Part shown: positions 32,271 to 56,842 of the stretch, piece by piece
Layout of the letters: each line of letters begins with the position of its first letter
How positions within the stretch are numbered: position 1 is the stretch's first letter
Assembly: GCF_017309385.1 (NCBI RefSeq)
Contig: NZ_JAFJMJ010000002.1
Coordinates: 1,302,001-1,366,000 of the forward strand
Length of the DNA: 64,000 nt
From: Amycolatopsis sp. 195334CR
Lineage (GTDB): Bacteria > Actinomycetota > Actinomycetes > Mycobacteriales > Pseudonocardiaceae
Reading direction: 5' to 3'
Notes under the pieces: generated by a model
Told to the model about the DNA's origin: nothing
Database searches by the model: none
The model's input: only the letters and a program-made list of their open reading frames with translations
Made by a program: the position numbers and the translations under genes

Positions 32271-32324
32271 GTCGATTGCCTCTCTGCCAGGGGCGGTCTC
32301 CACGGTAGGCCGTGTCCGCCAGCC

Positions 32325-32447: not shown

Positions 32448-32456
32448 TTGCCCACC

Positions 32457-33278: not shown

Positions 33279-33304
33279 AACCGAGAACCAAGGAGACGAC
33301 AAGG

Positions 33305-34078: not shown

Positions 34079-34087
34079 GGACGGACA

Positions 34088-36228: not shown

Positions 36229-36245
36229 CGAGCGGGAGGCCGCGC

Positions 36246-36926: not shown

Positions 36927-36980
36927 CCGGTATCCCGTTCCTTCCCGGGCGCGTGCCCGGGCCACGAAAGCGACGTCACC

Positions 36981-39990: not shown

Positions 39991-40905
39991 ATGATCAGAA
40001 CGGCACTCGTGGCATTCACCAGCACCCTGCTGATCGCCCTCGCCACCCCCGTGGCGTCCGCCGCCTCCCTGGTGGAGGTGACCAACTTCGGCGCCAACCC
40101 GGGCGGGATGCGCATGCACGTCTACGTACCCGACTCCCGCCCGCCCAATCCCGCCATCGTCGTCGCCATGCACGGCTGCGGTGGCTCCGGGCCGGGCTTC
40201 TACTCCAGCAGCGAGTTCGCCTCGCTCGCCAACCAGCGCGGGTTCGTCGTCATCTACCCGAGCGCCCAGCAGCAGGCCGGGTTCGGGAAGTGCTTCGACA
40301 CCTGGTCGGCCGCGGCCAAGCAGCGCGGCGGCGGGAGCGACCCGGTCTCCATCGTCTCGATGGTGAACCACGTCAAGCAGACCTACGGCGGCGACCCGAA
40401 CCGCGTGTTCGCCACCGGCTCCTCCTCCGGCGGCATGATGACCAACCACATGCTCGCCCTGTACCCCGACGTGTTCAAGGCGGGCGCGGCCTTCATGGGC
40501 GTGCCGTTCAACTGCTTCGCCAACGCCGCCGACTTCCCGCCCCCGGGCAGCAAGTGCACCAACGGCACGATGAACCGCACCCCGCAGCAGTGGGGCGACG
40601 CGGTCCGGCAGACCTTCCCCGGTTACACCGGCCCGCGCCCGAAGATGCAGCTGTGGCACGGCACGGCCGACACGCTGGTCCCGTACTCCCTGCTGCAGGA
40701 GGAGATCGAGCAGTGGACCAACGTGTTCGGCCTGAGCCAGACCCCGACCTCCACCGACACCCCGCAGCCGAACTGGAACCGCCGTCGTTACGCCGACCCA
40801 GCCGGTACCGCGCTGGTCGAGGCCTACAGCATCCAGGGCGCCGGGCACAGCCTGCCGTCCGCCGGAATGGCCGCCCAGGCCCTGAACTTCTTCGGCGTGG
40901 TCTAG
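39991..40905 (+). CDS. Secreted PHB-depolymerase/CE1-type esterase
   Basis: 304 residues. Signal peptide (TALVAFTSTLLIALATPVASA), then the LpqC/esterase-PHB fold: the oxyanion region AMHGCGGSGPGF, nucleophile elbow GSSSGG, the acid in HGTADTLVPYS, and His in GAGHSLP. The family includes extracellular PHB depolymerases and acetylxylan/feruloyl esterases. No carbohydrate- or PHB-binding module follows, so soluble substrates or partner proteins are likely. The convergent neighbour's stop overlaps by 4 bases. Confidence 0.85.
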   Translation: MIRTALVAFTSTLLIALATPVASAASLVEVTNFGANPGGMRMHVYVPDSRPPNPAIVVAMHGCGGSGPGFYSSSEFASLANQRGFVVIYPSAQQQAGFGKCFDTWSAAAKQRGGGSDPVSIVSMVNHVKQTYGGDPNRVFATGSSSGGMMTNHMLALYPDVFKAGAAFMGVPFNCFANAADFPPPGSKCTNGTMNRTPQQWGDAVRQTFPGYTGPRPKMQLWHGTADTLVPYSLLQEEIEQWTNVFGLSQTPTSTDTPQPNWNRRRYADPAGTALVEAYSIQGAGHSLPSAGMAAQALNFFGVV

Positions 40906-42614
40906 GGCAGGACCAGTGAACCCGACACTTCGATCCGCGACCCTTCGGCGTCGGCCAGCACCCCGGTCTCGCGCGGGTCGTACCCGGTGACGGTCAGCTG
41001 GACGCGGTGCCCGGCCCGGACCGAGTAGGACGTGGGCAGCAGGGCGAAGCGCAGGTGCGCGGTCTCCCCGGCCGCCACCGGCGCGGCGTCCTGAGCCCAC
41101 GCGCGGTGCCACGGCACGCCTTCGGGCAGCGCGTACGGCGCGGGGTGCTCGGCGCGCAGCGAGACCTGCTGCCGCCCTTCGGTGATCACCGTGGTGGTGC
41201 CGTCCGGGGCGACGTCTTCGAGGTAGGCGAACACGTGCGCGTCCGGCCGGTCCACCCGCACCGCCAGCTCGGCCACCGGCGTGCCGGTGATCTCGCGGTC
41301 GCGGTCGAGCACCGGGCCGGTCCAGCCGGTCCCGCTGCCGGGGATGTGGCACGGCTGGATGACCGCACCGCTGCCCGGATCCGACGGGCAGCGCACCCCG
41401 GTCGACACGGTGAACCCGCGCGTACCGGGCGCGGCCGAGCCGAGCACGCCGTCCCCGCCGAGCGGCGTCGGCGTGCCCCCGGCGGGCCAGCTCTCCGACG
41501 ACTTCCAGGTCAGGCCGGTGGCGTCGGCCTGATCCGAGGACGGGGTGGCGTAGTGGATCGGCGGTTCGTCGGTGATCCCGGTGTCGATGCCCTTGAGGTG
41601 CTGGTCGAAGAACCGGTGGGCCTCCTCGACCAACGCGAAACCCGCGTTCTCACAATGCTTCCACGGCCCGATGAGCAGTCGCGAGCCCGGCACGTTGAGC
41701 AGGGCCGCGATGCCCTGCCCACGGAGTTCGTCGCGCCAGCCCCCGATCACGTACACCGGCACCCCGGCGTCGCGGAGCTGCCCGGCGTAACTGCCCGCGC
41801 TGCCCTCGCTCCAGAACCGCGACTGCACCAGCGGCGAAAGGCTGTCCCGGAACGGCATGCCGCGCCACAGGTCGGCGAGCACAGTGGACTGCTGGTGCTC
41901 GAGTGCGGCTTCGCGCAGCAGGACCTTGTCCGGATCCCCGTCCACCGGCTGGTTCTGCAGATCCTGCTCGACCGTGCGCGCCGGGCCGAAGCCCCACTGC
42001 GCGGAGATGCCGCCGACCCGCCACGCGTCGTACTTGTCCCACGAGAAGCACCCGGCCAGCACGGCTTTCAGGTGCGGTGGCCGCATGGTCAGCGCGTGCA
42101 TCGCGGCGTCACCGGTGTTGGAGCAGCCGTACACCCCGACGTTGCCCGACGACCACGGCTGCGCGGCGAGCCATTCGGTGATCTCGTAGGCGTCCGCGGC
42201 CTCGATCCGGTCGTTGTAGCCGCGCCGGACGCCGAACGACTGCCCGTTGCCGCGCCGCGCGACCTGCGCCACCACGTACCCGTGCGCGGCCAGCTCCGGC
42301 ATGGTCTGGATGCCGCCGGTCTTCGGGCCCGCGCCGTCCTCGGGCTTGCGGTCGATGGACAGGCTGTGCTGCCACAGCACCGGGAACCGCCCGGGCGCGG
42401 CGGGCCGCTCCAGCCGCACGGCCAGCCGGGTCCCGTCGCGCATCGGCAGGTAGAACGACTCGCTCACCCGCTCGGTGAACCCCGGCTCCGGCCGGTACGA
42501 ACCCAGCGAACTCGCCGCGGTGGCCGGGCGGTCCGGGACGAGCAGGAAGGTGGCGACCCCCGCCGCGACGAGCACGAGCGCGGCGGCCAGGAGCAGGCGG
42601 GAACGTCGGCGCAT
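40902..42614 (-). CDS. Secreted CocE/NonD-family hydrolase (X-Pro dipeptidyl-peptidase type)
   Basis: 570 residues from ATG 42614 (GGAGGAGAA upstream). An N-terminal signal/anchor helix (RLLLAAALVLVAAGVATFLLV) is followed by the S15 catalytic domain. The nucleophile lies in VGVYGCSNTG, the acid in GGWRDE and His in IGPWKHCEN. The C-terminal jelly-roll domain includes PVAELAVRVDRPDAHVFAYLEDV. It hydrolyses esters or releases X-Pro dipeptides outside the cell. It lies 22 bases downstream of the DHA2 gene on the same strand, so it may be the ninth gene of that operon. Confidence 0.85.
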   Translation of the reverse strand: MRRRSRLLLAAALVLVAAGVATFLLVPDRPATAASSLGSYRPEPGFTERVSESFYLPMRDGTRLAVRLERPAAPGRFPVLWQHSLSIDRKPEDGAGPKTGGIQTMPELAAHGYVVAQVARRGNGQSFGVRRGYNDRIEAADAYEITEWLAAQPWSSGNVGVYGCSNTGDAAMHALTMRPPHLKAVLAGCFSWDKYDAWRVGGISAQWGFGPARTVEQDLQNQPVDGDPDKVLLREAALEHQQSTVLADLWRGMPFRDSLSPLVQSRFWSEGSAGSYAGQLRDAGVPVYVIGGWRDELRGQGIAALLNVPGSRLLIGPWKHCENAGFALVEEAHRFFDQHLKGIDTGITDEPPIHYATPSSDQADATGLTWKSSESWPAGGTPTPLGGDGVLGSAAPGTRGFTVSTGVRCPSDPGSGAVIQPCHIPGSGTGWTGPVLDRDREITGTPVAELAVRVDRPDAHVFAYLEDVAPDGTTTVITEGRQQVSLRAEHPAPYALPEGVPWHRAWAQDAAPVAAGETAHLRFALLPTSYSVRAGHRVQLTVTGYDPRETGVLADAEGSRIEVSGSLVLP

Positions 42615-42636: not shown

Positions 42637-44139
42637 TCAGTGCGCGGGCACGGCTTCGCCGAGCGCGGTTTCGCGGACGAGCAGGACGGCCACCAGTGCG
42701 AGCACGGCGACCGGGAGCGTGACGAGGAAGACCAGCTGGAGCCCGTTCGTGTAGGACTCCCGGACGGCTTCGGCCAGCGGTGGCGGCAGGGCCGCGACGT
42801 GGGCGGGCGTGCCCAGCAGCCGCCGGACGTCCTCGTCGGTGGCGGGCAACCCGGCCGCACCGAGCGCGGCGGGCAGGTCGGCCCGCAGCCGCGCGGCGAT
42901 CAGCGCGCCGAACGCGGCCACGCCGACGGCACCGCCGAGCGTGCGCGTGAACGTCGCCGACGAACTGGCCACCCCGACGTCTCCCGGCGCGACGGAGTCC
43001 TGCGCGGCGAGCACGAGCACCTGCTGCGTCAGCCCGGTGCCCGCGCCGAGCAGCGCCATGCCCGCGGCGACCTGCCAGGCCGGGGTGGTGGTGCTCAACG
43101 GGGCCAGCACGCCCAGCCCGGCCACCAGCAGCGCGCAGCCCACCGCCGGGTAGCGCTTCCACCGTCCGGTGTGGACGATCAGCCTGCCGGTCACCGCCGA
43201 GGCGATGATCATCGTGCCGATCTGCGGCAGCATCAGCAGCCCGGCGGCCATCGCCCCGTGCCCGTGCACCACCTGCAGGAACTGCGGCAGGTAGATGATG
43301 CCGCCGAACATCACCGTGCCGACCAGCAGCCCGGCCGCGCAGGCGAGGGTGAAGGTCCGGTCGCGGAACAGCCGGGGCGGCAGGATCGGGTCGGCCGCGC
43401 GGTGTTCACGCAGGACGGCCAGCAACGCGGTCACCAGCACCGCGGTGCCCAGCCCGAAGGTGGCGGGCGAGAACCACGGCCACGCGACGCCACCGGCGGA
43501 CAGCAGCACCACCAGCCCGCCCGAGGACAACGCCAGCAGGACCGCGCCGAGGTGGTCCAGCGGCGCGGCGGGCCGGGACGGGCGCCGGTCGGGAGCCAGC
43601 CGGATCAGCGCCGCGGCGACCAGTGCCACCGGCACCACCCCGAGGAAGCACCACCGCCAGCCCGGTCCGCCCGGGGTGACCAGCAGCCCGCCCAACAGCG
43701 GCCCGGCGACCGACGCGGTCCCGAAGGAAACCCCGAACCAGCCGGTGTAGCGGCCGCGTTCCCTGGCCGGGACCAGTACCGCGATCAACGCGTTGGTGCA
43801 GGCGAGCACGCCGCCGCCGGCCGCGCCCTGCAACGCGCGCCCGGCCACCAGCCAGCCCATCGACGGCGCGAGCCCGGCGACCAGCGAAGCCACCACGAAG
43901 AACCCGGTGGCCGCGAGCAGCATCGGGCGCGGGCCGTGCCGGTCGGCCAGCTTGCCCCAGACCGGGGTGGCCGCGGTCATCGTCAGCAGCGCGGCCGCGG
44001 CGACCCAGGCGACCTGGTCCTGCCCGCCGAGCTCCCCGGCGATGGTGGGCAACGCGATGCCGATGATGGTGTTGGTCAGCGAACCGGTGAACAACGCCAC
44101 CAGCGCGCCGGCGAGCACCGGCGCGACCCGCTCAGCCAC
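42637..44139 (-). CDS. MFS drug:H+ antiporter, DHA2 (14-TM) family
   Basis: 500 residues from GTG 44139. The motif TIIGIALPTIAGELGG in helix 1 and GKLADRHGPRPML in loop 2-3 are EmrB/QacA-type signatures, and about 14 hydrophobic segments are present. It is coupled to the dehydratase gene by an 8-base overlap, so it probably exports a product or toxic intermediate of the operon rather than being a general drug pump. Confidence 0.85.
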   Translation of the reverse strand: MAERVAPVLAGALVALFTGSLTNTIIGIALPTIAGELGGQDQVAWVAAAALLTMTAATPVWGKLADRHGPRPMLLAATGFFVVASLVAGLAPSMGWLVAGRALQGAAGGGVLACTNALIAVLVPARERGRYTGWFGVSFGTASVAGPLLGGLLVTPGGPGWRWCFLGVVPVALVAAALIRLAPDRRPSRPAAPLDHLGAVLLALSSGGLVVLLSAGGVAWPWFSPATFGLGTAVLVTALLAVLREHRAADPILPPRLFRDRTFTLACAAGLLVGTVMFGGIIYLPQFLQVVHGHGAMAAGLLMLPQIGTMIIASAVTGRLIVHTGRWKRYPAVGCALLVAGLGVLAPLSTTTPAWQVAAGMALLGAGTGLTQQVLVLAAQDSVAPGDVGVASSSATFTRTLGGAVGVAAFGALIAARLRADLPAALGAAGLPATDEDVRRLLGTPAHVAALPPPLAEAVRESYTNGLQLVFLVTLPVAVLALVAVLLVRETALGEAVPAH

Positions 44140-45370
44140 CGAGGACCTCGGCCTCCAGCCAGCCGCCCACCGACTTGTCCAAAAAGGACGGGTCGGACCG
44201 GCGGGCGTCCACGTTGTCCGCGTGCAGTTCGAGCACCGGCACCCCGGCCGCGCGCAACGCCCTGGTGGTGGCCCAGCTGCCGCGCGCGTCGTCGGAGACC
44301 AGGTGCACCACGCCGTCGACACCGTGCGTGCGGGCCTGGTGGACGTACCACTCGGCCGACCACGGCGGGGTGTAGAGCTGGTCGGAGAACGCGGCGAACC
44401 GGGCGGCGAGCGCGCGCAGCGGGTCGTCGCCGTAGCGGAGGTAGCCGTCGGCGGCGATGGCGAGGTACATCGACCAGACGAAAACCGCGCCGTACCGGTC
44501 CTGGAACCGCCGGTAGAAGTCCAGGTCGAACCACAGGCCCCGGCCGATCCACATCAGCCTGGCGCGCTCGGGTTCGCACACCGCCGCGCCCGCCGCGATC
44601 CGCTCGGCCACCTCGTCGTGCAGCGCCTTCGCCGCGTCCCGCGCCCATTCGGTCCCGCGGTGCCACTGCGGGATCATCACCGCCGGAATGCTGTCGGTGA
44701 CCGGCACCGGGCAGGGGCGCGCGGCGGCGATCAGGTCGCGGGTGCGCCGGTTCCACTCCTCCTGCTCGTTGACCAGGTCCATCACCTCGGTGAACCGCCG
44801 CCGCGAGAACCGCCGTCCGGTGGTGGTCTCCAGGAACCGGATCAGGCCGTGCAGCTCGCCGGTCATCAGCTCGATCCGGTCGGTGCCGATCGCCTCCTCC
44901 CACCGGTGCGGCATCAGCTCCCACCAGCGCACGGGCACGGTGTCGGCGGCGGCGCTCTCCAGCGGGTAGAAGGTCACGCCGGGCTGATCACCCCAGACGT
45001 CGAAGATCTTGCGGGAGGCGTCGCCGGTGGTCTCCGCGAGCACGATGGCCGGCTTGGGCAACCCGCCCCACGGCCCGGAATCCGGGGCGAACGCGCTGGC
45101 GAGCGAGGTGGAGCTGTACTGCTCGGTGTAGTCGGGGTACCCGCGTTCACGCAGCCGCGCCAGTTGTTCCTGGGTCTGCCGCTTCGCTGCGACGATCGAG
45201 GCCCACCACTGGTTCACCACGTACGGGATGCCCATCGCGCGGAAGATTTCCTGCGGCGCGTCGGCGTTGACCAGTGCCAGCGGCGTACCCGAGTCGACTT
45301 GTTCCTTCAGCCCGGCGAACCACTCCCGCTGGTACGCCGTCGCGGCCGCGGCGCTGGGCAGGCGGCTCAT
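44132..45370 (-). CDS. 2-hydroxyacyl-CoA dehydratase-like subunit, larger (cysteine-poor)
   Basis: 412 residues. The fold pattern fits the HgdB/BcrC family: residues 33-60 (LVNADAPQEIFRAMGIPYVVNQWWASIVAA), GELHGLIRFLETTTGRRFS, and the late HLVSDDARGSWATTRALRAAGVPVLELHADNVD. The only cysteines are C220 and C265; the usual Cys after the first domain is Ser here (QYSSTSL). A canonical [4Fe-4S] cluster therefore looks impossible in this subunit. ATGA overlap couples it to the smaller subunit. Reaction unknown; dehydration or reduction of an acyl-CoA is the family activity. Confidence 0.7.
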   Translation of the reverse strand: MSRLPSAAAATAYQREWFAGLKEQVDSGTPLALVNADAPQEIFRAMGIPYVVNQWWASIVAAKRQTQEQLARLRERGYPDYTEQYSSTSLASAFAPDSGPWGGLPKPAIVLAETTGDASRKIFDVWGDQPGVTFYPLESAAADTVPVRWWELMPHRWEEAIGTDRIELMTGELHGLIRFLETTTGRRFSRRRFTEVMDLVNEQEEWNRRTRDLIAAARPCPVPVTDSIPAVMIPQWHRGTEWARDAAKALHDEVAERIAAGAAVCEPERARLMWIGRGLWFDLDFYRRFQDRYGAVFVWSMYLAIAADGYLRYGDDPLRALAARFAAFSDQLYTPPWSAEWYVHQARTHGVDGVVHLVSDDARGSWATTRALRAAGVPVLELHADNVDARRSDPSFLDKSVGGWLEAEVLGG

Positions 45371-46416
45371 CGGGTCGCCGCCGCGAGATCGATGCGGCCG
45401 TACTCCTGGCGGTCGACGAGTGTGGCGGGTACGCCGGCGGCCTCCCGCTGGGCCGGGAAGTCCCACGGTGGCGCGTCGTCGTGCCGGCGGACGTAGGCGA
45501 GCAGGGCCCCGGCACCGCGTGCGCGCACGGCGGCGGCGGTGTGCGCGGCACGCTCCACAATGGACGCCCGAGGCGCGGCGGGGCCGGCGAACTGGTAGCG
45601 CTCGGCGATCGCCAGTTCGGTCGGCGCGCCGACGTCGGACACCGCGAGCAGGTCGCCCCAGTCGTGGTCCTCACCGACGATCAGCAGCCCCGCGTCCTCC
45701 AGCGCCCGGTAGACCTCGGGGGAGTCGTGGCTGCTGCCGGTCAGGTACACCGGCCTGCCCGGCCGCGGCTCCCGGTGTGCCAGGGTGGAAAGCAAGTCCC
45801 GCACCAGCTTCTCCGCTTCGCCGACCGGCATGGCCGTGACCACCGAAACCGCGGCGAGCGCCTCGGTGCCGGTGAGGCGCCGGTGGCCGCGGTGGATGCC
45901 GATTTCCCTGAGCAGGCCGCGGACGCGGTCGTGCGCGGCGACCGCGGCGGCCAGGTCGTCGTCGCCGATCCGCCGTCCCGTCACGGCTTCGAGCCACGAC
46001 CGGAACTGGCGGACCTTGGCCAGCACGTACCGCGTGGTGGTGTGGTGCGGCAGGTGCAGCACGTCGACCAGGTGCAGCGGCGGCAGCGCGATCGACGGCT
46101 CGACCCGCCGGATCTCCCGCAGCACGTAGAACAACCGCAGCGACGCCTCGCAATCCCGGGACAGCACCAGCAGGTCGAGGTGGCCGTAGGCGCCGTCGAG
46201 CAACCGGGTCAGCACCGAGCAGGCCACCGCGTCGAGCCCACCCCCGAGCCGTTCCCGGCCCGCGCTCGCGTCCTCGGCGGGGGAACCGGTCAGCCGCAGC
46301 GGCAGCACTCCGGCGGCGGTCAGCAGCTCGACCGGCACATCGGCACCGACGTATCCGGCCACCGGGCGACCCGCCGCCCGCCAGCGTTCGACGGCGTCCC
46401 CGCGCTCCGGCAGCAT
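45367..46416 (-). CDS. 2-hydroxyacyl-CoA dehydratase-like subunit, smaller
   Basis: 349 residues. GYVGADVPVELLTAAGVLPLRL is the classic opening of this family. C66 (DAVACSVLTRLLDG) and C89 (SRDCEASLRLFYVL) sit at the first two cluster-ligand positions. The third expected Cys region reads RRHDDAPPWDFP and has none. The gene starts in a TGATG overlap with the CoA-transferase stop. No activating ATPase (HgdC type) is encoded in the window, although classical members need one. Confidence 0.75.
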   Translation of the reverse strand: MLPERGDAVERWRAAGRPVAGYVGADVPVELLTAAGVLPLRLTGSPAEDASAGRERLGGGLDAVACSVLTRLLDGAYGHLDLLVLSRDCEASLRLFYVLREIRRVEPSIALPPLHLVDVLHLPHHTTTRYVLAKVRQFRSWLEAVTGRRIGDDDLAAAVAAHDRVRGLLREIGIHRGHRRLTGTEALAAVSVVTAMPVGEAEKLVRDLLSTLAHREPRPGRPVYLTGSSHDSPEVYRALEDAGLLIVGEDHDWGDLLAVSDVGAPTELAIAERYQFAGPAAPRASIVERAAHTAAAVRARGAGALLAYVRRHDDAPPWDFPAQREAAGVPATLVDRQEYGRIDLAAATR

Positions 46417-47654
46417 CAGATGACCGAATCCGCGGCCAGCGCGGCCAATTCGTCCTCGCTGTACCCGAGCAGTTCGCGGTAGACGTGCTCGTTGTGCTCA
46501 CCGAGCGCGGGCGCGGGCGCGTCCAGGCCGACCGAGGCGCCGGAGAACACGATCGGCATGCCGGTGGCCGAAAGATCCGCCACCGCGCCGTGCCGGGGAT
46601 GGGTGATCGGCACGACCTCGCGTCGCTCGCGCACGAGCGGATCCCGTACCGCGTCACGGGGTTCGCGGACCTGCGCGGCGGGCACCCCGTGCTCGGACAG
46701 CCGGTCCACCACCTCGGCCGACGGCAGCACGCGGCACCAGTCGCCGATCAGCGCGTGCAGTTCGTCCGCGCGCCGCACGCGTTCGTCCCGCGTGCGGTAC
46801 CGGTCGTCGTCGACCAGGTCCTCGCGGCCCATGGCCCGCAGGACACCGCGGGCGAAGGCGTCGGTGGGCGCGCACAACGCGATGTGCCCGTCCGCGGTGG
46901 GCAGGATGCCGAACGGCGCGAGCCGCGGCACCAGCGAACCGGTGCGCTGCGGCAACCCGACCGCCTCGAAGGCGTCGAACGGCTCACAGGCCACCAGCGA
47001 GGTCAGCGCGCCGAGCATGGACACGTCCACGTGCTGCCCCTGCCCGGTGGTTTCCGCCTGCAGCAACGCGGACACCGTGCCCACCACGGCGAACAGCGGC
47101 GCCAGCAGGTCGCCGACCGGCAGGCCGAACCGCACCGGGTCGCCGTCCGGCTCGCCCGCGGTCATCATCACCCCGGACAGCGCCTGGATGATCGAGTCCA
47201 TCGCCTTGCCCGAACCCGGCCCGCCCTGCGTGCCGAACCCGCTGATCGAGGTGTAGACCAGCCGCGGGTTGATCTCCCGCACGGCGGCGTAGTCGATGCC
47301 GAGGCGGCCGGTGACGCCGGGGGAGTAGTTCTCCACCAGCACGTCGGCGTCGCGCACCAGATCGGTGAACACCGCCTTCGCGCGCGGGTCCTTGAGATTG
47401 AGCGTCACGCTGAGCTTGCCCCGCCCGCGCACCAGCATCGACACCGACATGTCGTCGTCGTGCTTGCGGCCCAGCGCCAGCCCGTCGCGGCCGAGGTAGG
47501 GCGCGTTGTTGCGGGCGGTGTCGCCGCCGGTCGCGGGGTTCTCCACCTTGATCACCGTGGCGCCGAGCCCGGCCAGCAGCAGGGTGGCGTACGGCCCGGC
47601 GAGCGCGGTGGTCAGGTCGATCACGGTGCGGCCGGCGAGCGGCTGGTCGGTCAT
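46416..47654 (-). CDS. CaiB/BaiF-type (class III) CoA-transferase
   Basis: 412 residues. LAGRTVIDLTTALAGPYATLLLAGLGATVIKVE at the N-terminus includes the segment before the family's catalytic-Asp region, and DVLVENYSPGVTGRLGIDY with VYTSISGFGTQGG are diagnostic. It moves CoA from an acyl-CoA to a free acid, here probably to prime the acid that the dehydratase pair acts on. Overlaps with both neighbours show it is part of the coupled operon. Confidence 0.87.
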   Translation of the reverse strand: MTDQPLAGRTVIDLTTALAGPYATLLLAGLGATVIKVENPATGGDTARNNAPYLGRDGLALGRKHDDDMSVSMLVRGRGKLSVTLNLKDPRAKAVFTDLVRDADVLVENYSPGVTGRLGIDYAAVREINPRLVYTSISGFGTQGGPGSGKAMDSIIQALSGVMMTAGEPDGDPVRFGLPVGDLLAPLFAVVGTVSALLQAETTGQGQHVDVSMLGALTSLVACEPFDAFEAVGLPQRTGSLVPRLAPFGILPTADGHIALCAPTDAFARGVLRAMGREDLVDDDRYRTRDERVRRADELHALIGDWCRVLPSAEVVDRLSEHGVPAAQVREPRDAVRDPLVRERREVVPITHPRHGAVADLSATGMPIVFSGASVGLDAPAPALGEHNEHVYRELLGYSEDELAALAADSVI

Positions 47655-48817
47655 GCGGGGTCCTCCATGGCTGAGATGTGGCCGGCCCGCCGGGTTCCGG
47701 CGATCAGGACCCGGTCGCCGTCGCGGACCAGGTCCGCGCCGAGCCGTGCGCGTGCGGTGATGTCGCGGACGTAGGCGAGCACGGCCTCGCCCTCCGGCGA
47801 ATCCGGGGAAAGCGGGATCGGGCGGCCGCGGTCGTCGATGTGGCACGGCACCAGCCCGGCGTCGGCCAGGCCGTCGCGGTCGAACCGGCACACGGCCACC
47901 ACGGTGTTCCGGCTTTCCGGGTGGAACGGGTAGTACGGCATTTCCGGATCGGGCGCGAAACCGTAGAGCTGCTTGCGTTTCTCCGCCCACGCGGCCCGTT
48001 CGGCGCTGTCGCCGCCCTCGGCCGGGGTGAGCGCGCGGGTGACCGTGACGAAGTTGCCGAGGCCGTGGAAGATCGGCTTGCCCCGGTGCACCTCGATACC
48101 GCGCAGGATGTGCGCGTGGTGGCCGAACACCGCGTCGGCACCGGCGTCGATCGCCGCGCGGGCCACCGGGCTCTCGTACATCGCCACCGCCGCCGGGGTG
48201 TGCCCGACACCCTTGTGCAGCGCCACGAGCACCACGTCGGTTTCGGCGCGCAACGCGGTGATGTCGGCCGCCATCGCCTCCAGGCTGTCCGGATCGGCGA
48301 AGGTGTAGATCCGCGGCGGCCCGCCGGGGCTGGCGTGGTCGAGTTCGTAGTGGGTCAGCACGTGGACGTAGGCGCAGCCCGCTTTCTTCGACGTGGCCCA
48401 GGATTCCCGCGGGCCGACGCAGTTGTACGACAGCACGCCGATCCGCAGGCCGTCGCGCTCGACCACCGCCGGGGTGCGGGCCTCGGTGACGTCCGCACCG
48501 GCTCCCACCGGGACGAGCCCGGCCACGCGGGAGTGCGCCACGGTGTCGGTCACGCCGACCTCACCGGCGTCGAAGATGTGGTTGCCCGCCAAGGTGACCA
48601 CGTCGAACCCGGCCTCGGCGAGCGCGCCGAGCGCGGCCGGATCGGCGGGCGGCGCGGGCACATCGGTGCTGATCTGGGTGGTGGTGGTCGAATGCGGGAC
48701 CTCGACGTGCCCGATCGCGACGTCGGCCCGCTGGAACAGGGGAGCCGACGGCGCCAGGAAACCCGCCGGGTCGGGCTCGTCGAGGATCAGGTCCCCGACG
48801 GCGGCGATGGTGATCAT
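47651..48817 (-). CDS. CapA family (PGA_cap, metallophosphatase-fold) protein
   Basis: 388 residues. [46 protein letters not shown] and [18 protein letters not shown] are the metal-site motifs of the CapA/PGA_cap family. There is no signal peptide or transmembrane helix, so unlike Bacillus CapA it is probably cytoplasmic. Its coupling to an amino-acid-type importer and CoA enzymes suggests a hydrolase or ligase acting on a small molecule; that is inference. Confidence 0.8.
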
Positions 48818-49590
48818 GAGACCGCTTCCTCGGTGTGCCGGGACAGGAAGGCCCGCAGCCGCGGGCTTTTCGGATCGCCGAAGACCTCGGCGGGGGTGCC
48901 CGACTCGACGATCCGGCCGGCTTCCATGAACACGCACCGGTCGGCCACCTCGCGGGCGAAGGCCATCTCGTGGGTCACCACCACCATCGTCAGCCCGTCG
49001 GCGGCGAGCCCGCGCAGCACGCCGAGCACCTCGTCGACCAGTTCCGGGTCGAGCGCACTGGTCGGCTCGTCGAACAGCATGATCCGGGGGCGCACGGCCA
49101 GCGCCCTGGCGATCGCCACGCGCTGCTGCTGCCCGCCGGAGAGCTGGCGCGGGTAGTGGTGCAGGCGCTCGCCGAGGCCGACCCGCTCCAGCAGCGCGAT
49201 CGCGTCCGCCTCGGTTTCCGCGCGGTCGCGGCGGTGCACCCGCACCGGGGCCTCGGTGACGTTGCGCAACGCGGTGAAGTGCGGGAACAGGTTGAACTGC
49301 TGGAAGACCATGCCGATCCGCCTGCGTTGCGCGGCCCGCCCGCGCGGGCTCAGCGGCCGCAGCCCGCCGCGGTGCTCCTCGTAGCCGATCAGGTCGCCGT
49401 CGAGGTACATCGCGCCCGCGTCGATCGACTCCAGCTGGTGCACACAACGGACCAAAGTGGACTTCCCGGAGCCGGACGGGCCGATGACCACCACCACCTC
49501 GCCCTCGGCCACGTCGAGGTCCACTCCGTCGAGCGCGGGGTGCGTGCCGAAGGACTTCCGCACGCCGCTCATCCGCAGCACCGGGTTCAC
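48814..49590 (-). CDS. Amino-acid ABC transporter ATP-binding protein (GlnQ type)
   Basis: 258 residues from GTG 49590. Walker [11 protein letters not shown]-loop [12 protein letters not shown], signature LSGGQQQR, Walker [15 protein letters not shown] and H-loop VVTHEM are all intact and typical of polar-amino-acid importers. It is coupled by GTGA/ATGA overlaps to the permease and the CapA-like gene. Confidence 0.88.
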
Positions 49591-50453
49591 GAGGCACCTC
49601 CCCGCGCGAAGCGGCGTTCGAGCCGTCGCTGGAGCACGGTCAGCAGGGTGACCACGACCAGGTACCAGACGCACGCCACGATCAGCATCGGCACGATCTC
49701 GTAGCTCTGGTTGTAGATCACCTGCACCGCGTGCAGCAGGTCGTTCATCGCGATCACCGAGACCAGCGCGGTGCCCTTGAGCACGCTGATGAACTGGCTG
49801 CCGCTCGGCGGGATGATCACCCGCATCGCCTGCGGCAGCACGATCCGGAAGAAGGTCTGCGCCGGGGTGAAGCCCATCGCGGAGGCGGCTTCGCGCTGCC
49901 CCTGGTCCACGCCCAGCACCCCGGCACGGATGATTTCGGCCATATACGCCGACTCCACCAGCGAGAGCCCGATGATGCCCGCGGTCAGCGGGGTGATCAG
50001 GTCGTTGGCGTTCCAGGTCAGCAGCGCCGGGCCGAACGGCACGCTCAGCGAGATCTTCGGCAGCAGGTAGGCCAGGTTGAACCAGAAGATCAGCTGCACC
50101 AGGGGCGGGATGCCGCGGAACACGCCGACGTAGAGCGTGGCGGCCCAGCGCGCCGGGGCGAAGCCGGACAGCTGCGCGGCGGCGAGCAGCCCGCCCACCA
50201 CCGAGCCGATCACCATCGCCAGCACGGCCAGCAGCACGGTGGTGCCGAGTCCGGAAAGGACGGACGGGGCGAACAGGTGCTCGGCCACCACGTCCCACTG
50301 GAACCGCTCGTTGCCGACCAGGAAGGCCAGCAGCTGCGCGGCCAGCACCACGAGCACGGCGGTGGCCACCCAGCGCCACGGCCGGAACCGGGGCCGCGCG
50401 CCGGCGATGTCGTGCGCGCGCGGGGTGGCCGGGGAATCGGTGGTCACGGTCAT
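49587..50453 (-). CDS. Amino-acid ABC transporter permease (HisM/GlnP type)
   Basis: 288 residues. Several helices surround the coupling loop [22 protein letters not shown], the EAA motif of this family. [16 protein letters not shown] is the usual upstream signature. An N-terminal extension of about 25 residues precedes the first helix. One permease gene suggests a homodimer. Confidence 0.87.
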
Positions 50454-51358
50454 GACGGCGTCCCGGCGTTGAACTCCGGCCGCGGCACGGTCACCCCGTC
50501 CAGCCCCCACTTCCGCATGATCTCCTGGTAGCGCCCGGAGTTGAACAACTCGCCGAAAGCCTGGTGCAGCACCGGTCCGAGCCCGCTCGCCTTCGAGGTG
50601 TAGAGCGCGAGCTTGTCCGCGGTGGCGCCCTGCTCCTCGGTCTGCGTGACGTAGGTGTAGACGCCCTGCTGCTGCGCGGTCACGTCGATCGCCGCGGCCT
50701 GGGTCATGCCCGCCGCCTCGGCGCGCCCGGACTGCGCGGCCAGCAGGGTGGCGTTGGTGTCGGCGAGCCCGATCGACTGCACCGCACCGCGTCCGGCGCG
50801 CTCGCAGAACGCCGAGAGCTGCCGCAGCTGCTCCTCGACCACGCTCGCGGTGACCACGGCGACCCGCTTGCCGCACAACGCGTCCGTGGCCGGGATGGGC
50901 ACCGGCGCGTTCGACGGCACCACGTACGAGGTGCGCGTGGTCATCCAGGTGATCGTGTCGAACTGCTTCTCGCGTTCGGCGGTGACCTTCACCGGGCCGT
51001 TGAACGCGTCGTAGCGGTTGGACAGCATTCCTTGCAGCGCACCGGGAAGGCTGTCCACCACGATGGTTTCCGTGCGCACGCCGAGCAGTTGGCCCAGCGC
51101 GTCCTGGAAGTCCTTGTCGATACCGGTGATCGAGCCGTCGGCGGCGACCGTGCGGTAGGGCGGGTGCGAGTCGCCGGCGAAGCGGAGCACGCCGGCCTGG
51201 CGCACGGGTTCGGGCAGCGCGTCGTGGAGGGCGGTGTTCGCGCCCGCCGGTACCGGGGTGTCGGTGCCCTCGCCGAGCTGCGCACCGCAGCCGGTGAGGA
51301 CGAGCAGGAGCGCGGCGGCGCCGAACAACGGTCTGCGGGCGTGGGGGATGGGTCGCAT
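50450..51358 (-). CDS. Amino-acid-type ABC transporter substrate-binding lipoprotein
   Basis: 302 residues from ATG 51358; an in-frame ATG at 51421 lies in the promoter. The signal ends in the lipobox LTGC. The SBP family 3 fold is indicated by [37 protein letters not shown] and [18 protein letters not shown]. An Asp-type ligand anchor as in true amino-acid binders is not obvious (SHPPYRT rather than DxxPF). It leads the eight-gene operon, diverging from paaX. Confidence 0.83.
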
Positions 51359-51516
51359 GGCGGTGGTTCTCCCTGCGTTGGGCCTGGCCAGGCGGGGTGT
51401 CGGGATCGGGGAACCGATCATTGACGACTAGAATGCCGACGAGCGTCGCACGAGGTGTCGCCAATTGCAAGACCCGGTCGCCCCGTAGGCTTCCGGCCAA
51501 CCCGAAGGGAGCGCGG

Positions 51517-52491
51517 ATGCCGGAGACCCCGCCGCGGGCCGAACCGCAGCTGCTGCTGACCTCGCTGCTCGGCGACTACTGGTACTGGCGCGACGAGCAC
51601 ATCCCGTCGGCCGCGCTGGTGCGGTTGCTCGCGGAGTTCGGCATCGGCACGGACAACGCCAGGGCGGCGATGCGGCGGCTGGCGGCCAAGGGCCTGCTGA
51701 CCACCTCGCGGCGCGGCCGGACCACCGCGTACGGCATCCCGCCGCGCACCAGCGGCGTGATCGTCGGGCGCACGCACCGGATGCTCACCTTCGGCGCCAC
51801 CGCGCCGGAGTGGGACGGGTACTGGACCGTGGTCGCGTTCTCGGTGCCCGAGCAGGAACGCGAGGTGCGCACGGCACTGCGCTCGCGGTTGCGCGTGCTC
51901 GGTTTCGCCGCGCTGTACGACGGTTTGTGGGTGTCCCCGCGCGACCTCGCCGAACCGGCGGTCGCGCTGCTCGCCGAACTCGGCATCGAACGCGGCAGCG
52001 TGCTGCGGGCGACCGAGGTGCCCGGCGGACCGGCGGGCGGCGGCCCGGCCGAGGCGTTCGACCTCGAACCCCTGGCCCGGCAGTACCGGGAATTCGTCGA
52101 CCGCTACCGGCCGCTGCCCGCGCGCCTCGCGGCCGGCCGGATCAGCCCGGCCGAGGCGCTGCGCCTGCGCACCGAACTGCGCGTCGACTGGCGGGCCTTT
52201 CCCGAGCGGGACCCGGATCTGCCCGCGGTCATGCTGCCGCCGGGCTGGTCCCGCGCCGAAGCGCAGCGGCTGTTCCTGGAGATCTACGACCGGCTGGGCC
52301 CGCTCGCCGAACAGCGCTTCCGCGAGCTGCTCGCGGAAGCGGACCCGGAGCTGGCCGAGCTCGCTTCGCACCACGACAGCGCCCGGATCGCCGAGCTGTA
52401 CGCGCGGCTCGGCGGCGACGCCGAACGCGGTGACACCCCGTTCGAGCAGGCGGTCCGCGCACGACGGCTGGACGACCTGCGCCGCGGCTGA
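51517..52491 (+). CDS. PaaX family transcriptional regulator
   Basis: 324 residues. PaaX-type N-terminal winged helix (LLTSLLGDYWYWRDEHIPSAALVRLLAEFGI, then AAMRRLAAKGLLTTSRRGRTTAYGI) and the PaaX central domain (WTVVAFSVPEQEREVRTALRSRLRVLGFAALYDGLWVSP). PaaX represses phenylacetate catabolism and senses phenylacetyl-CoA; close relatives may sense other aryl- or acyl-CoAs. It lies between the CoA-transferase operon (divergent) and the ferulate genes, so either could be its target. The ATG has AAGGGAG upstream. Confidence 0.85.
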   Translation: MPETPPRAEPQLLLTSLLGDYWYWRDEHIPSAALVRLLAEFGIGTDNARAAMRRLAAKGLLTTSRRGRTTAYGIPPRTSGVIVGRTHRMLTFGATAPEWDGYWTVVAFSVPEQEREVRTALRSRLRVLGFAALYDGLWVSPRDLAEPAVALLAELGIERGSVLRATEVPGGPAGGGPAEAFDLEPLARQYREFVDRYRPLPARLAAGRISPAEALRLRTELRVDWRAFPERDPDLPAVMLPPGWSRAEAQRLFLEIYDRLGPLAEQRFRELLAEADPELAELASHHDSARIAELYARLGGDAERGDTPFEQAVRARRLDDLRRG

Positions 52492-52600: not shown

Positions 52601-52624
52601 AAACCGACCGACTCGGAGGTCCCG

Positions 52625-54079
52625 GTGGAGTTCCTCGATCCCGCGCGCTGGTCCGGCAAGGTCTTCACCGGCACCTGGACCGACGGCGGTTCCGGTACGC
52701 ACGAAGTACGCGAGCCCGCGACCGGGGCGGCCCTCGGTTCGGTGGGCGTCGCCGGTGCCGCGGACATCGCCGCCGCCGTCGACCGCGCCGCGCCCGCCCA
52801 GCGCGAGTGGGCCGCGCTGCCGCACGCCGAACGTTCCGCGGTGCTGCTGCGGGCCGCCGCTCTGCTGACCGAGCACACCGGCGCCATCGCCGACTGGGTG
52901 GTCCGCGAGTCGGGGTCGGTCCGGCTCAAGGCGGGCATCGAGATCGAAGGCTCGGCGGGGGAGTGCGTGCAGGCCGCCGCGCTGCCGTCGGCGCCCTACG
53001 GCGAACTGCTGCCCTCGGCGGGCCGGATGAGCTTCGAACGCCGGGTTCCGGTGGGCGTGGTCGCGGTGATCTCGCCGTTCAACTTCCCTTTGCTGCTCTC
53101 GATGCGTTCGGTGGCACCGGCGCTCGCGCTGGGCAACGCGGTGATCGTCAAACCCGATCCGCGCACCGCGGTCTGCGGCGGGGTGGTGATCGCGCGGATC
53201 TTCGAGGAGGCCGGGCTGCCCGCGGGCGTGCTCCAGGTGCTGCCGGGTGACGCCGAAGCCGGGGCCGCGCTGGTCGAGCACCCGCGCGTGCCGGTCATCT
53301 CGTTCACCGGCTCGACCCGCGCCGGCCGGGCCATCGGCGCCCGTGCCGGGGAACTGCTGAAGCGGGCGCACCTCGAACTCGGCGGCAACAGCGCGCTGGT
53401 GGTGCTCGAAGACGCCGATCTCGAAGCCGCCGCGTCCTGCGGTGCGTTCGGCAGTTTCCTGCACCAGGGCCAGATCTGCATGGCCGTGGGCAGGCACCTG
53501 GTGCACCGCTCGCTGTACGACCGCTACGTCGAGCTGCTCGGCAAGAAGGCCGAACAGCTGCCGGTCGGTGATCCGTTCACCGAGGACGTGGTGCTCGGCC
53601 CGATCATCGACGGCGGTCAGCTCGCCCACGTGCGCGACCTGGTGGACCGCAGCGTGGCCGCCGGGGCGTGGCTGGTGCAGGGCGGTACCGCGGACGGGCC
53701 GTTCTACCGCCCGACCGTGCTCGCCGACTGCGGACCGTCGATCCCGGCCTACGCCGAAGAGGTGTTCGGGCCGGTGGCCTGCGTACGCCCGTTCGACACG
53801 CTCGACGAGGCCGCCGAGTTCGCCGCCGACTCCGAATACGGCTTGAGCCTGGGCGTGCTCACCGCCGATCCGGCGGCCGGGCTGGCACTGGCCGACCGCA
53901 TCCCCAGCGGCCTGGTGCACATCAACGACCAGACGGTGAACGACGATCCCGCCGCGCCCTTCGGCGGGGTCGGCGCCTCCGGTGTCGGCCGCGTCGGCGG
54001 TGCCCGCGCGAACGTCGATGCCTTCACCGAGACCCAGTGGGTCACCGTGCGCGCCGAATCCGCGCGCTACCCGTTCTGA
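52625..54079 (+). CDS. vdh: Vanillin/benzaldehyde dehydrogenase
   Basis: 484 residues from GTG 52625 with GGAGG seven bases upstream. ALDH signatures: ISPFNFPLLLSMRSVAPALALGNAVIVKPD, ISFTGSTRAG, catalytic Glu in LELGGNSALVV, and catalytic Cys285 in HQGQICMA. The GQIC-type active site and the HLVHRSLYDRYVE region match aromatic-aldehyde dehydrogenases. It oxidises vanillin or 4-hydroxybenzaldehyde, the product of the next enzyme, to the acid. First gene of the ferulate operon. Confidence 0.85.
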   Translation: MEFLDPARWSGKVFTGTWTDGGSGTHEVREPATGAALGSVGVAGAADIAAAVDRAAPAQREWAALPHAERSAVLLRAAALLTEHTGAIADWVVRESGSVRLKAGIEIEGSAGECVQAAALPSAPYGELLPSAGRMSFERRVPVGVVAVISPFNFPLLLSMRSVAPALALGNAVIVKPDPRTAVCGGVVIARIFEEAGLPAGVLQVLPGDAEAGAALVEHPRVPVISFTGSTRAGRAIGARAGELLKRAHLELGGNSALVVLEDADLEAAASCGAFGSFLHQGQICMAVGRHLVHRSLYDRYVELLGKKAEQLPVGDPFTEDVVLGPIIDGGQLAHVRDLVDRSVAAGAWLVQGGTADGPFYRPTVLADCGPSIPAYAEEVFGPVACVRPFDTLDEAAEFAADSEYGLSLGVLTADPAAGLALADRIPSGLVHINDQTVNDDPAAPFGGVGASGVGRVGGARANVDAFTETQWVTVRAESARYPF

Positions 54080-54093
54080 AAGGACCGAAACAC

Positions 54094-54927
54094 ATGTCTG
54101 AAGCGCCGTGGGGCGAAAACGTGCTCGTCGACTTCGAGGACGGCATCGCCTGGGTGACGCTCAACCGCCCGGAGAAGCGCAACGCGATGAACCCGGCGCT
54201 CAACGACGAAATGGTGCGCACGCTCGACGCGCTGGAGGGCGATCCGCGCTGCCGCGTGCTGGTGCTCACGGGCGCGGGCGACTCGTTCTCGGCGGGCATG
54301 GACCTGCGCGAGTACTTCCGCGAGGTGGACGAGTCCGGCGACGCGGCGGTGCAGATCCGGGTGCGCCGCGCCAGCGCCGAATGGCAGTGGAAGCGGCTGG
54401 CCACCTGGTCGAAGCCGACCATCGCGATGGTCAACGGCTGGTGCTTCGGCGGCGCGTTCACCCCGCTGGTCGCCTGCGACCTCGCCATCTCCGCCGAAGA
54501 CGCCCACTATGGACTGTCCGAAGTGAACTGGGGAATCCCGCCGGGCGGGGTGGTCAGCCGGGCGCTGGCGGCCACGGTCAGCCAGCGCGACGCGCTGTAC
54601 TTCATCATGACCGGCGAGCCGTTCGACGGCCGTCGTGCCGCCGAAATGCGCCTGGTCAACGAAGCGGTCCCGGCGGAGCACCTGCGCGGGCGCACCCGGG
54701 AACTGGCGGCGAAGCTGGCCGCGATGAACCCGGTGGTGCTGCGCGCGGCGAAGGTCGGCTACAAGCTGGCCCAGGAGATGCCGTGGGAGCAGGCCGAGGA
54801 CTACCTCTACGCGAAGCTGGAGCAGTCGCAGTTCCTCGACCCCGAGCAGGGCCGCCAGAAGGGCATGACCCAGTTCCTCGACGACAAGACCTTCCGCCCC
54901 GGTCTTTCGGCCTACCGGAACGACTGA
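54094..54927 (+). CDS. ech: Hydroxycinnamoyl-CoA hydratase-lyase (feruloyl-CoA to vanillin)
   Basis: 277 residues of the crotonase fold, with DSFSAGMDLREYF (oxyanion region) and LSEVNWGIPPGGVVSR. In the Pseudomonas fluorescens HCHL numbering known to me, the catalytic Glu143 and Tyr239 fall exactly on E143 and Y239 here (EDYLYAKLEQSQ); Ser123 is Thr. The C-terminal MTQFLDDKTFRPGLSAY is also characteristic. It hydrates feruloyl- or coumaroyl-CoA and cleaves off acetyl-CoA to give the benzaldehyde. It lies 14 bases after vdh. Confidence 0.9.
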   Translation: MSEAPWGENVLVDFEDGIAWVTLNRPEKRNAMNPALNDEMVRTLDALEGDPRCRVLVLTGAGDSFSAGMDLREYFREVDESGDAAVQIRVRRASAEWQWKRLATWSKPTIAMVNGWCFGGAFTPLVACDLAISAEDAHYGLSEVNWGIPPGGVVSRALAATVSQRDALYFIMTGEPFDGRRAAEMRLVNEAVPAEHLRGRTRELAAKLAAMNPVVLRAAKVGYKLAQEMPWEQAEDYLYAKLEQSQFLDPEQGRQKGMTQFLDDKTFRPGLSAYRND

Positions 54928-56396
54928 TGCGCGACGAGGGCCTCGGCTCGTGGCCGTCGCGGCGGGCCAGGATGACCCCGGACCGGATCGCGCTGGTGCA
55001 CGGCGACCGGGAACTGAGCTACGCGGCCCTCGCCGCGCGGTCCGCCGGGCTGGCGCACGGCCTGCGCTCGCTCGGGGTGCGGCGGGGCGACCGGGTCGCC
55101 TACCTCGGCCCCAACCACCCCGCCTACCTCGAAACCCTGTTCGCCACCGCGTCGCTGGGCGCGGTCTTCGTCCCGGTCAACAGCAGGCTGGCGGCGCCGG
55201 AACTGGCCTACGTGCTCGACGACGCCGGGGTTTCCGTGCTGGTGCACGCGTCGCCGGTGGAGGTGGCGGCGCGGGAACTCCTGGCGGTCGGCGGGGCGCG
55301 GTACGAGGAGTTCGCGTCGGGGCCCGCGGAGCCGCCCGACGAACCGGTCTCGCTCGGCGACCCGTGCCTGATCATGTACACCTCGGGCAGCACCGGGCGG
55401 CCGAAGGGCGCGGTGCTCTCGCACGGCAACCTCACCTGGAACTGCGTCAACGTGCTGGTCGAGTCGGACCTGTCCGGTGGTGAGGTGGCGCTGGTGGCCG
55501 CACCGCTGTTCCACACCGCCGCGCTGGGCATGACCTGCCTGCCGACGTTGCTCAAGGGCGGCACCGCGGTGCTGATGGAGTCGTTCGACCCGGCCGCGGC
55601 GCTGGCGCTGATCGCCCGGCACCGGGTGACGCTGCTGTTCGGCGTGCCCGCGATGTACGACGCGATGGCCGCGCAGCCCGGCTGGGCGTCGGCGGACCTG
55701 TCCAGCGTGCGGACGCTGCTCTGCGGCGGGGCGCCGGTGCCGCCGTCGACGATCCGGCGGTACCTGGACCGCGGGCTCGCGTTCGTGCAGGGCTACGGCA
55801 TGACCGAGGCGGCGCCGGGGGTGCTGGTGCTCGACCCGGCCGCCGCGCGCACCAAGGCGGGCAGCGCCGGGGTGCCGTCGTTCTTCACCGACGTGCGCGT
55901 GGCCGGTCCGGCCGGGGAGCCGGTGCCGCCGGGGGAACGCGGGGAGATCGTGGTGCGCGGCCCGAACGTCATGCTCGGGTACTGGAACCAGCCCGCGGCC
56001 ACCGACCAGGCACTGGCGGGCGGCTGGCTGCACTCCGGCGATGTGGCCACTGTGGACGGTGACGGCTACTTCACCGTGGTCGACCGGCTCAAGGACATGA
56101 TCATCTCGGGTGGGGAGAACGTCTACCCGGCCGAGGTGGAGGCCGCCGCGCTGGACCACCCCGACGTCGAACTGTGCGCGGTGATCGGCGCGCCCGACCC
56201 GAAGTGGGGCGAGGTGCCGCGCGCGGTGGTGGTGCGGCGGCCCGGCACCGCGCTGACCGCGGACGAGCTGCGCGCCCACCTGCGCGAGCGGCTCGCCGGG
56301 TACAAGGTGCCGAAGTACGTCGAGTTCCGGGAGGAGCTGCCCCGCACCGGGTCCGGCAAGATCCGCAAGGCCGAACTGCGGGCGCTGTACGCATGA
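54927..56396 (+). CDS. fcs: Feruloyl/p-coumaroyl-CoA synthetase
   Basis: 489 residues of the ANL family: MYTSGSTGRPKG (phosphate loop), QGYGMTEAAPG, DRLKDMIISGGENVYPAEVE, and the catalytic Lys in RTGSGKIRKAEL. It starts in a TGATG overlap with ech. Context rather than sequence fixes the substrate as a hydroxycinnamate; it is shorter than some Fcs because it lacks an N-terminal extension. Confidence 0.85.
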   Translation: MRDEGLGSWPSRRARMTPDRIALVHGDRELSYAALAARSAGLAHGLRSLGVRRGDRVAYLGPNHPAYLETLFATASLGAVFVPVNSRLAAPELAYVLDDAGVSVLVHASPVEVAARELLAVGGARYEEFASGPAEPPDEPVSLGDPCLIMYTSGSTGRPKGAVLSHGNLTWNCVNVLVESDLSGGEVALVAAPLFHTAALGMTCLPTLLKGGTAVLMESFDPAAALALIARHRVTLLFGVPAMYDAMAAQPGWASADLSSVRTLLCGGAPVPPSTIRRYLDRGLAFVQGYGMTEAAPGVLVLDPAAARTKAGSAGVPSFFTDVRVAGPAGEPVPPGERGEIVVRGPNVMLGYWNQPAATDQALAGGWLHSGDVATVDGDGYFTVVDRLKDMIISGGENVYPAEVEAAALDHPDVELCAVIGAPDPKWGEVPRAVVVRRPGTALTADELRAHLRERLAGYKVPKYVEFREELPRTGSGKIRKAELRALYA

Positions 56397-56842
56397 CCCC
56401 GGCGCTGCGGCACGATCAGGACATGGGATCGGAACCGCTTACCCTCTACCTGGTCAAGCGGCTGGAGCTGGTCATCCGCGCGCGCATGGACGAGGCGCTG
56501 CGGCCGAAGGGCCTGACCACGCTCCAGTTCACCGCGCTGACCGCGCTGCGGCGGCGCAGCGGCCTGTCGTCGGCACAACTGGCGCGGCGCTCGTTCGTCA
56601 CCCCGCAGACGATGAACGAGATGGTGCGGTGGCTGGAGGAGCGCGGGCACATCGAGCGCACGCGCGATCCGGCGAACCGGCGGGTGCTGCTGCTGGCGCT
56701 GACCCCGGCGGGGGAGACCCTGCTGGCCGAATGCGATCCGCTGGTCGAAGCCATCGAAGCCGAACTGCTCGCGGCGATCCCCGAGGTGCAGCACCCGTTG
56801 CTCCGCCAGAGCCTGGAACTGGGCTACAACGCACTGGCCTAG
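56393..56842 (+). CDS. MarR family regulator (FerR/CouR-like)
   Basis: 149 residues from ATG 56393, which overlaps the fcs stop (ATGA); an internal ATG at 56423 is the alternative. Winged helix: TTLQFTALTALRRRSGLSSAQLARRSFVTPQTMNEMVRWLEERGHIERTRDPANRR. As last gene of vdh-ech-fcs it probably represses the operon through the palindromes at 52496-52600. Confidence 0.86.
   Translation: MTPALRHDQDMGSEPLTLYLVKRLELVIRARMDEALRPKGLTTLQFTALTALRRRSGLSSAQLARRSFVTPQTMNEMVRWLEERGHIERTRDPANRRVLLLALTPAGETLLAECDPLVEAIEAELLAAIPEVQHPLLRQSLELGYNALA

Follow-up and report, generated by a model that had tools for sequence, protein, structure and literature searches.

Eight coupled genes on the minus strand of Amycolatopsis sp. 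195334CR, read from 51358 to 42637 in a 64,000-nucleotide stretch of DNA (hereafter the window; assembly GCF_017309385.1, contig NZ_JAFJMJ010000002.1, positions 1,302,001 to 1,366,000), encode an importer, a CapA-family protein, a coenzyme A (CoA)-transferase of the CaiB type, two dehydratase-type subunits carrying the HGD-D domain and an exporter. This set is a widely conserved bacterial unit and not a chance assembly. Anaerobes are the known hosts of radical 2-hydroxyacyl-CoA dehydratases; the large HGD-D subunit encoded here keeps the fold of such an enzyme and has none of the three cluster cysteines. The chances are about even, in our judgement, that the unit takes up an acid, probably a phenylpropanoid-type acid derived from an ester, and activates it with CoA to feed hydroxycinnamoyl-CoA catabolism. 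This branch is widespread in actinomycetes; it retains the fold, both subunits and the partnership with a CoA-transferase but has dropped the cluster ligands, which would mean that the old scaffold has acquired either a new chemistry or a new role. A function is suggested, too, for some CapA-family proteins and for those genes outside the anaerobes that bear the name "2-hydroxyacyl-CoA dehydratase family protein", such as those on Novosphingobium and Croceicoccus plasmids.

Composition and conservation of the unit

The genes are, in order, the solute-binding lipoprotein of a polar-amino-acid-type (PAAT) ATP-binding cassette (ABC) importer (50450..51358; SBP_bac_3, PF00497, 1.6e-15), its permease (49587..50453; BPD_transp_1, PF00528, 1e-23; TIGR01726, 65.4 bits, cut-off 42.2), its ATPase with a GTG start (48814..49590; ABC_tran, PF00005; best NCBIfam model EhuA, 313.7 bits, below the cut-off of 345.4), the CapA protein (47651..48817; PGA_cap), the CaiB-type family III CoA-transferase (46416..47654; CoA_transf_3, PF02515, 9e-109, 364 bits), the small HGD-D subunit, HadC/BzdN-like (45367..46416; PF06050, 3.4e-30), the large HGD-D subunit, HadB/BzdO-like (44132..45370), and an accessory DHA2-type exporter of the major facilitator superfamily (MFS) with a GTG start (42637..44139; MFS_1, PF07690; TIGR00711, 200.2 bits, below the cut-off of 230.2). 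All seven junctions overlap, by 4 bases at solute-binding protein/permease, permease/ATPase, ATPase/CapA, CapA/CaiB and small/large HGD-D, by 1 base at CaiB/small HGD-D and by 8 bases at large HGD-D/DHA2. Coordinates and Pfam names thus agree with an earlier note on this DNA, which had named the eight genes and given overlaps of 1 to 8 bases. The open frame of the binding protein extends to 51421, and its start is likely to be the ATG at 51358 because a lipobox (LTGC) comes soon after that internal ATG. A ninth gene had been missed: 22 bases downstream of the DHA2 gene, behind a GGAGGAG site, starts a CocE/NonD-family hydrolase (40902..42614, minus strand; TIGR00976, 217 bits, cut-off 66), whose N-terminus looks signal-like by eye, so that the protein may be secreted.

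One scan of genome contigs with the large HGD-D protein gave 114 confirmed places, the best 80 of which were kept (the 80 loci), and gene presence in them was scored by tblastn at fixed thresholds. For control, 20 stretches, each 20 kb long, were taken at round coordinates from four genomes, the source genome included, and none of the searched genes reached the thresholds in them. In these best 80 of 114 loci CaiB is kept in 76, the small HGD-D subunit in 75, CapA in 69 and a PaaX-type regulator in 57. Of the four loci scored without CaiB, L085 and L090 are short contigs, whereas L113 and L119 have a more distant CaiB. The earlier note had proposed a single unit that joins import and CoA transfer to an atypical dehydratase pair, and this is therefore supported by a gene neighbourhood kept across the loci; freely varying neighbours, which would have spoken for chance, are not found for CaiB or the HGD-D pair. 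Four hydrolase families were scored, and 45/80 loci carry a member of one of them. The DHA2 pump, which had been read as a fixed part, occurs in 18/80 (at least 60% identity) and is not supported as one.

Two further samples were used: an order sample of 298 genomes drawn from a larger group, from which come 14 loci (L024-L037, the second set), and a survey of plasmid records. Since the two locus sets overlap in organisms (apparently G120 = L089, G118 = L070, G125 = L061 and G233 = L090), their counts are not independent. The plasmid survey gave seven relatives at 37-41% identity (Novosphingobium, Croceicoccus and one Rhizobium) and an eighth match, at 26% identity, of the canonical kind. In Novosphingobium EMRT-2 the order is CocE hydrolase, TonB receptor, CapA, TRAP permeases, small HGD-D (a protein annotated "hypothetical", match E 8e-14), double CoA-transferase, large HGD-D, DctP, second hydrolase and another CoA-transferase; Croceicoccus has this order without the TonB receptor, its small HGD-D being assigned by position. 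Two variants may be added: a relative of the unit in Litchfieldia (L119, 6505-18871) contains a second CapA gene and a gene for a 3-hydroxyacyl-CoA dehydrogenase, and a diverged branch in family f16 (L033, L035, L036, L037) has the PAAT importer directly followed by CaiB, without CapA.

The importer is interchangeable. Among the 80 loci 45 have the PAAT type only, 19 the peptide type (Opp) only, seven an iron-type (SBP_bac_8) importer only, five two types and four none, and the Novosphingobium and Croceicoccus relatives have TRAP permeases, so the amino-acid-type importer cannot be kept as the fixed part it had been taken for. CapA occurs in 45/45 PAAT-only, 18/19 Opp-only and 0/7 iron-type-only loci, and a cytochrome P450 in 4/45, 1/19 and 7/7, respectively; the closest solved structures to the P450 of the iron-type loci, CYP130 and a CYP125-type protein, are uninformative on the substrate. 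In the second set CapA accompanies five of nine PAAT, one of three Opp, no iron-type (0/1) and no untyped (0/1) importers. CapA thus often accompanies PAAT and Opp importers, which can nevertheless do without it, and its candidacy as an obligatory importer partner was rejected on the second-set loci that lack it. In four loci (L073, L074, L108, L121) importer and CapA lie apart from the CaiB/HGD-D genes, on the opposite strand in L108 and L121. CapA goes with uptake and sits at the seam between the two operon halves, which accounts for an odd gene in the operon middle. The earlier note had called it especially unexplained; its place is now partly explained, as it follows the importer type, but it is no fixed member of the unit and can be absent.

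The closest relative of CapA is MslH (26-28% identity), and a PHROGs search with CapA gave no match. In PMC10406935, MslH is described as an epimerase of the C-terminal Trp of a lasso peptide, with the dyads His88/Asp91 and His295/Asp11 and the ligands Glu44, Asn87, His259 and His261. The CapA residues H80, D83, H236, N79 and H201 align with these dyads and ligands, D9 and E39 correspond by position only, and His261 is replaced by Gly203; against the MslH equivalog NF038314 CapA scores 101.8 bits, far from the cut-off of 700.

The dehydratase-type pair

PF06050 lies above its cut-off in both subunits, and the computed fold of the large one, modelled alone, is that of HadB of (R)-2-hydroxyisocaproyl-CoA dehydratase (PDB 3o3m-3o3o). 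None of the three cluster cysteines is present in the large subunit of the window or in the 39 other actinomycete rows of its branch (40/40), so "atypical", as the earlier note had put it, turns out to be an understatement. The ligands are mostly lost in the small subunit too: in the alignment D62 (60/60) stands at ligand 1 and C89 (Cys in 45/60) at ligand 2, and the window copy has one cysteine of three. The large subunits of Litchfieldia (L119, Bacillota) and of one Chloroflexi relative retain all three, the small subunit of Litchfieldia being without them. The partner CaiB has the CoA_transf_3 domain of a family III CoA-transferase and keeps D182 in 63/63 sequences, a residue which we take, from Frc/CaiB, to be the nucleophile. 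An activator (BcrAD_BadFG) was looked for in the source genome; two PF01869 matches (94 and 83 bits) were found, neither near the operon, and the only NCBIfam match of both is N-acetylglucosamine kinase, below its cut-off. The source genome therefore appears to have no convincing dehydratase activator.

In layout the unit resembles HadABC, which with its activator HadI serves (R)-2-hydroxyisocaproate fermentation, and FldABC, which acts on aryl-lactates, by joining a CoA-transferase to a dehydratase pair. It differs from them in having no activator gene and no cluster cysteines in the large subunit, and in carrying an importer, often CapA, and a PaaX-family regulator; moreover, its hosts are presumably aerobic kinds, unlike those of HadABC and FldABC. 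The benzoyl-CoA reductases BzdNO and MbdON share the large-subunit fold, but the operon here has no ATPase subunits and its large subunit no cluster ligands. All parts belong to known families, and the combination with a cluster-free large subunit seems to match no system in the literature searched; open literature searches found no report of the unit, and passages of a paper on piperine catabolism (PMC12753220) mention neither a CoA transferase nor a dehydratase.

In the tree of large HGD-D subunits the window copy is closest to Pseudonocardia copies (86%) despite a same-genus copy in G118, and gene transfer is possible. Other HGD-D systems were seen in passing. R. jostii NBRC 16295 has two strong dehydratase-activator genes (G301:C3:228390 and 263980; its cou genes lie on contig C27), which perhaps belong to a separate HGD-D system. 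Actinomycete HGD-D proteins of another branch (L038, 8530-9864; L039, 9183-10553) have cysteines at or beside the ligand positions and acyl-CoA ligases nearby, and a Rhizobium leguminosarum plasmid (L126, 11809-17237) carries an HGD-D pair and two activases, with genes for rhodanese and a sulfate permease in the vicinity.

Hydroxycinnamate genes and the proposed role

The earlier note did not recognise a pathway; the best clue to it, the plus-strand genes beyond the divergent PaaX-family regulator, was left unmentioned. They are an aldehyde dehydrogenase, vdh-like by position (52616..54079, start approximate), which matches NCBIfam aldehyde dehydrogenase models, none above its cut-off among the 25 matches listed; a p-hydroxycinnamoyl-CoA hydratase/lyase, ech (54094..54927; NF006588 on 54115-54927, 444 bits, equivalog cut-off 276); an acyl-CoA ligase which its position makes fcs-like (54927..56396; 498.7 bits against a cut-off of 476 for NF004837, a model of a broad subfamily that bears the name long-chain-fatty-acid--CoA ligase); and a regulator of the MarR type, with HcaR as its closest solved relative (56393..56842; PDB 3k0l, E 1.7e-20). 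The ech-vdh-fcs pathway degrades p-hydroxycinnamate, and by gene order the genes look like such an operon. A second p-hydroxycinnamate pathway is encoded by cou genes, among which CouO has its role (PMC4737184). NCBIfam gave no name for the CouO-type amidohydrolase, which was identified via a neighbour: the anchor is an amidohydrolase of R. jostii NBRC 16295, and the MarR protein next to it, almost identical to PDB 5cyv, is presumably CouR.

A hydratase/lyase at least 50% identical to that of the window lies in the fetched stretch of 4/80 loci and a CouO-type amidohydrolase in that of 15 others, which makes 19/80 loci in seven genera against 0/20 control stretches. In Croceicoccus, hydratase/lyase, ligase and aldehyde dehydrogenase stand directly beside the unit. 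Among the 298 genomes, with a threshold of E 1e-100 or better for the large HGD-D and E 1e-80 for CouO, the unit is found in 15 and CouO in 91; weak matches in G271, G282, G075 and G087 were entered as non-carriers. CouO is present in 15/15 carriers and in 76/283 non-carriers (Fisher p 8e-9, uncorrected for relatedness). Eight of the 15 carriers belong to family f16, in which CouO is common; outside f16 all 7 carriers have it, as do 53 of the non-carriers, which number at most 247 there (p 3e-5). Six carriers (G071, G127, G078, G190, G182, G120) have CouO within 22 kb of the unit. As control markers, a phenylacetate oxygenase family occurs in 14/15 carriers and 189/283 non-carriers (p 0.04), and homogentisate dioxygenase (HgmA) in 1/15 and 8/283.

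Hydroxycinnamoyl-CoA and its 3-hydroxy adduct are intermediates shared by the ech and cou pathways, and it is because they are common to both that hydroxycinnamoyl-CoA is proposed as the product of the unit. The flux would be inward. A hydrolase, here the CocE/NonD protein, would release an acid from an ester, and the interchangeable importer would bring it into the cell, where CapA, if present, might adjust it, most simply by an acid/base epimerisation of the alpha carbon as in MslH. CaiB would then form the CoA thioester. The HGD-D pair, which has no iron-sulfur cluster on its large subunit as predicted and no activator to serve it in the source genome, would convert the thioester to p-hydroxycinnamoyl-CoA (or the 3-hydroxy adduct), and the hydratase/lyase or the Cou enzymes would degrade the product. 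The ech-vdh-fcs and cou pathways, whose genes accompany the unit in the window and the 19 loci, start from the free acid via a CoA ligase; the unit would add an entry by CoA transfer. The Fld form of the dehydratase converts phenyllactate to cinnamoyl-CoA. The best guess for the substrate class, by itself rather doubtful, is a 2-substituted 3-arylpropanoate, for example an aryl-lactate, and rosmarinate-type esters as its source are offered as an idea only. Similarly uncertain, and in our view improbable as a whole, is the more specific proposal that the pair descends from the radical dehydratases but tolerates oxygen, lacks iron-sulfur and works by a different mechanism (another metal or none), forming p-hydroxycinnamoyl-CoA from a 2-substituted 3-arylpropanoyl-CoA. 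If it were true, plant esters would feed hydroxycinnamate catabolism in aerobic bacteria by a route so far unrecognised, and in many of these bacteria CapA would epimerise the free acid next to the importer.

Several observations weigh against a role in hydroxycinnamate catabolism. The stretch fetched is without hydratase/lyase or CouO in 61/80 loci and in 13/14 of the second set (1/14 has one). Of the 15 CouO loci 8 are Streptomyces, and all six carriers with a near CouO belong to family f16, so the events are few. The hydratase/lyase alone shows no significant excess (2/15 carriers, 10/283 non-carriers, p 0.12), the cou cluster and the unit of R. jostii are on different contigs, and the CouO of the source genome is on another contig than the operon. 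As to the chemistry, we know of no mechanism for 2-hydroxyacyl-CoA dehydration without the radical cluster; R. jostii has its two activator genes though its large HGD-D has no cluster cysteines, and the Chloroflexi relative with three cysteines sits in a genome with strong activator genes. CapA, being absent from 4/9 PAAT and 2/3 Opp loci of the second set, is no necessary step, and its dyad residues also occur in ordinary metallophosphatases and phosphoesterases. The many loci without a hydroxycinnamate link, the confinement of the near cases in the genome sample to one family and the somewhat higher frequency of phenylacetate genes in carriers would all be expected if the same kind of unit (hydrolase, import, CoA, conversion) handled a non-phenylpropanoid substrate and hydroxycinnamate genes lay near it through a clustering of genes for aromatic compounds and plant matter. 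This is possible, though we hold it to be on the unlikely side, as the CouO link is stronger than that of either control marker and two different hydroxycinnamate pathways adjoin the same core, Croceicoccus being a further case for one of the two.

The loss of all known cluster ligands from the large subunit in 40 actinomycete rows could also mean that the HGD-D pair is non-catalytic and binds acyl-CoA as a scaffold or sensor for CaiB or a regulator; this is improbable, since the HGD-D alignment has 36 invariant columns, with many W, R, E and Y among them, over 38 sequences of four phyla, and both the small subunit and CaiB are so regularly retained. Still less probable is a biosynthetic unit that produces and exports a specialised metabolite, which the DHA2 exporter at the operon end, with its antibiotic-efflux relatives, might suggest: importers, hydrolases and catabolic neighbours are commoner in the loci than that exporter. 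A standard iron-sulfur, activator-dependent 2-hydroxyacyl-CoA dehydratase or benzoyl-CoA reductase, finally, would fit the HGD-D family, the HadB/BzdO fold, and the three cysteines of Litchfieldia and of the Chloroflexi relative with its activator genes, but it is contradicted here by the cysteine-free large subunits of the window and its branch and by activator-family matches that fit only a sugar kinase, and is very improbable.

The divergent regulator and other genes of the window

The PaaX-family regulator (51517..52491, plus strand; PaaX, PaaX_M and PaaX_C) diverges from the operon, as had been noted. It scores 133 bits against TIGR02277, below the cut-off of 264.55, and by this model would be a PaaX-family member other than the phenylacetate repressor. 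The gap between it and the binding-protein gene is 158 bases if the latter starts at 51358, and contains a conserved element, TAGGCGACAcCTCgTGCGACGCTCGtC (51426..51464, minus strand), a candidate operator found at the same place in 19/80 loci, in L024 and in the window; its bare core occurs elsewhere seven times in the loci searched and once in the 20 control stretches.

Elsewhere in the window, positions 30927-38809 hold a sugar-type MFS transporter, a TIM-barrel isomerase, a Dak1-Dak2 kinase, an RpiB-type isomerase and the N-terminal half of a transketolase by Pfam, and a short-chain dehydrogenase/reductase and the second transketolase half as judged by eye; this may be a catabolic operon for a tetritol or tetrose (erythritol or threitol). 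On the minus strand at 57612-61196 an nSTAND1 NTPase of 1194 amino acids with WD40 repeats is encoded.

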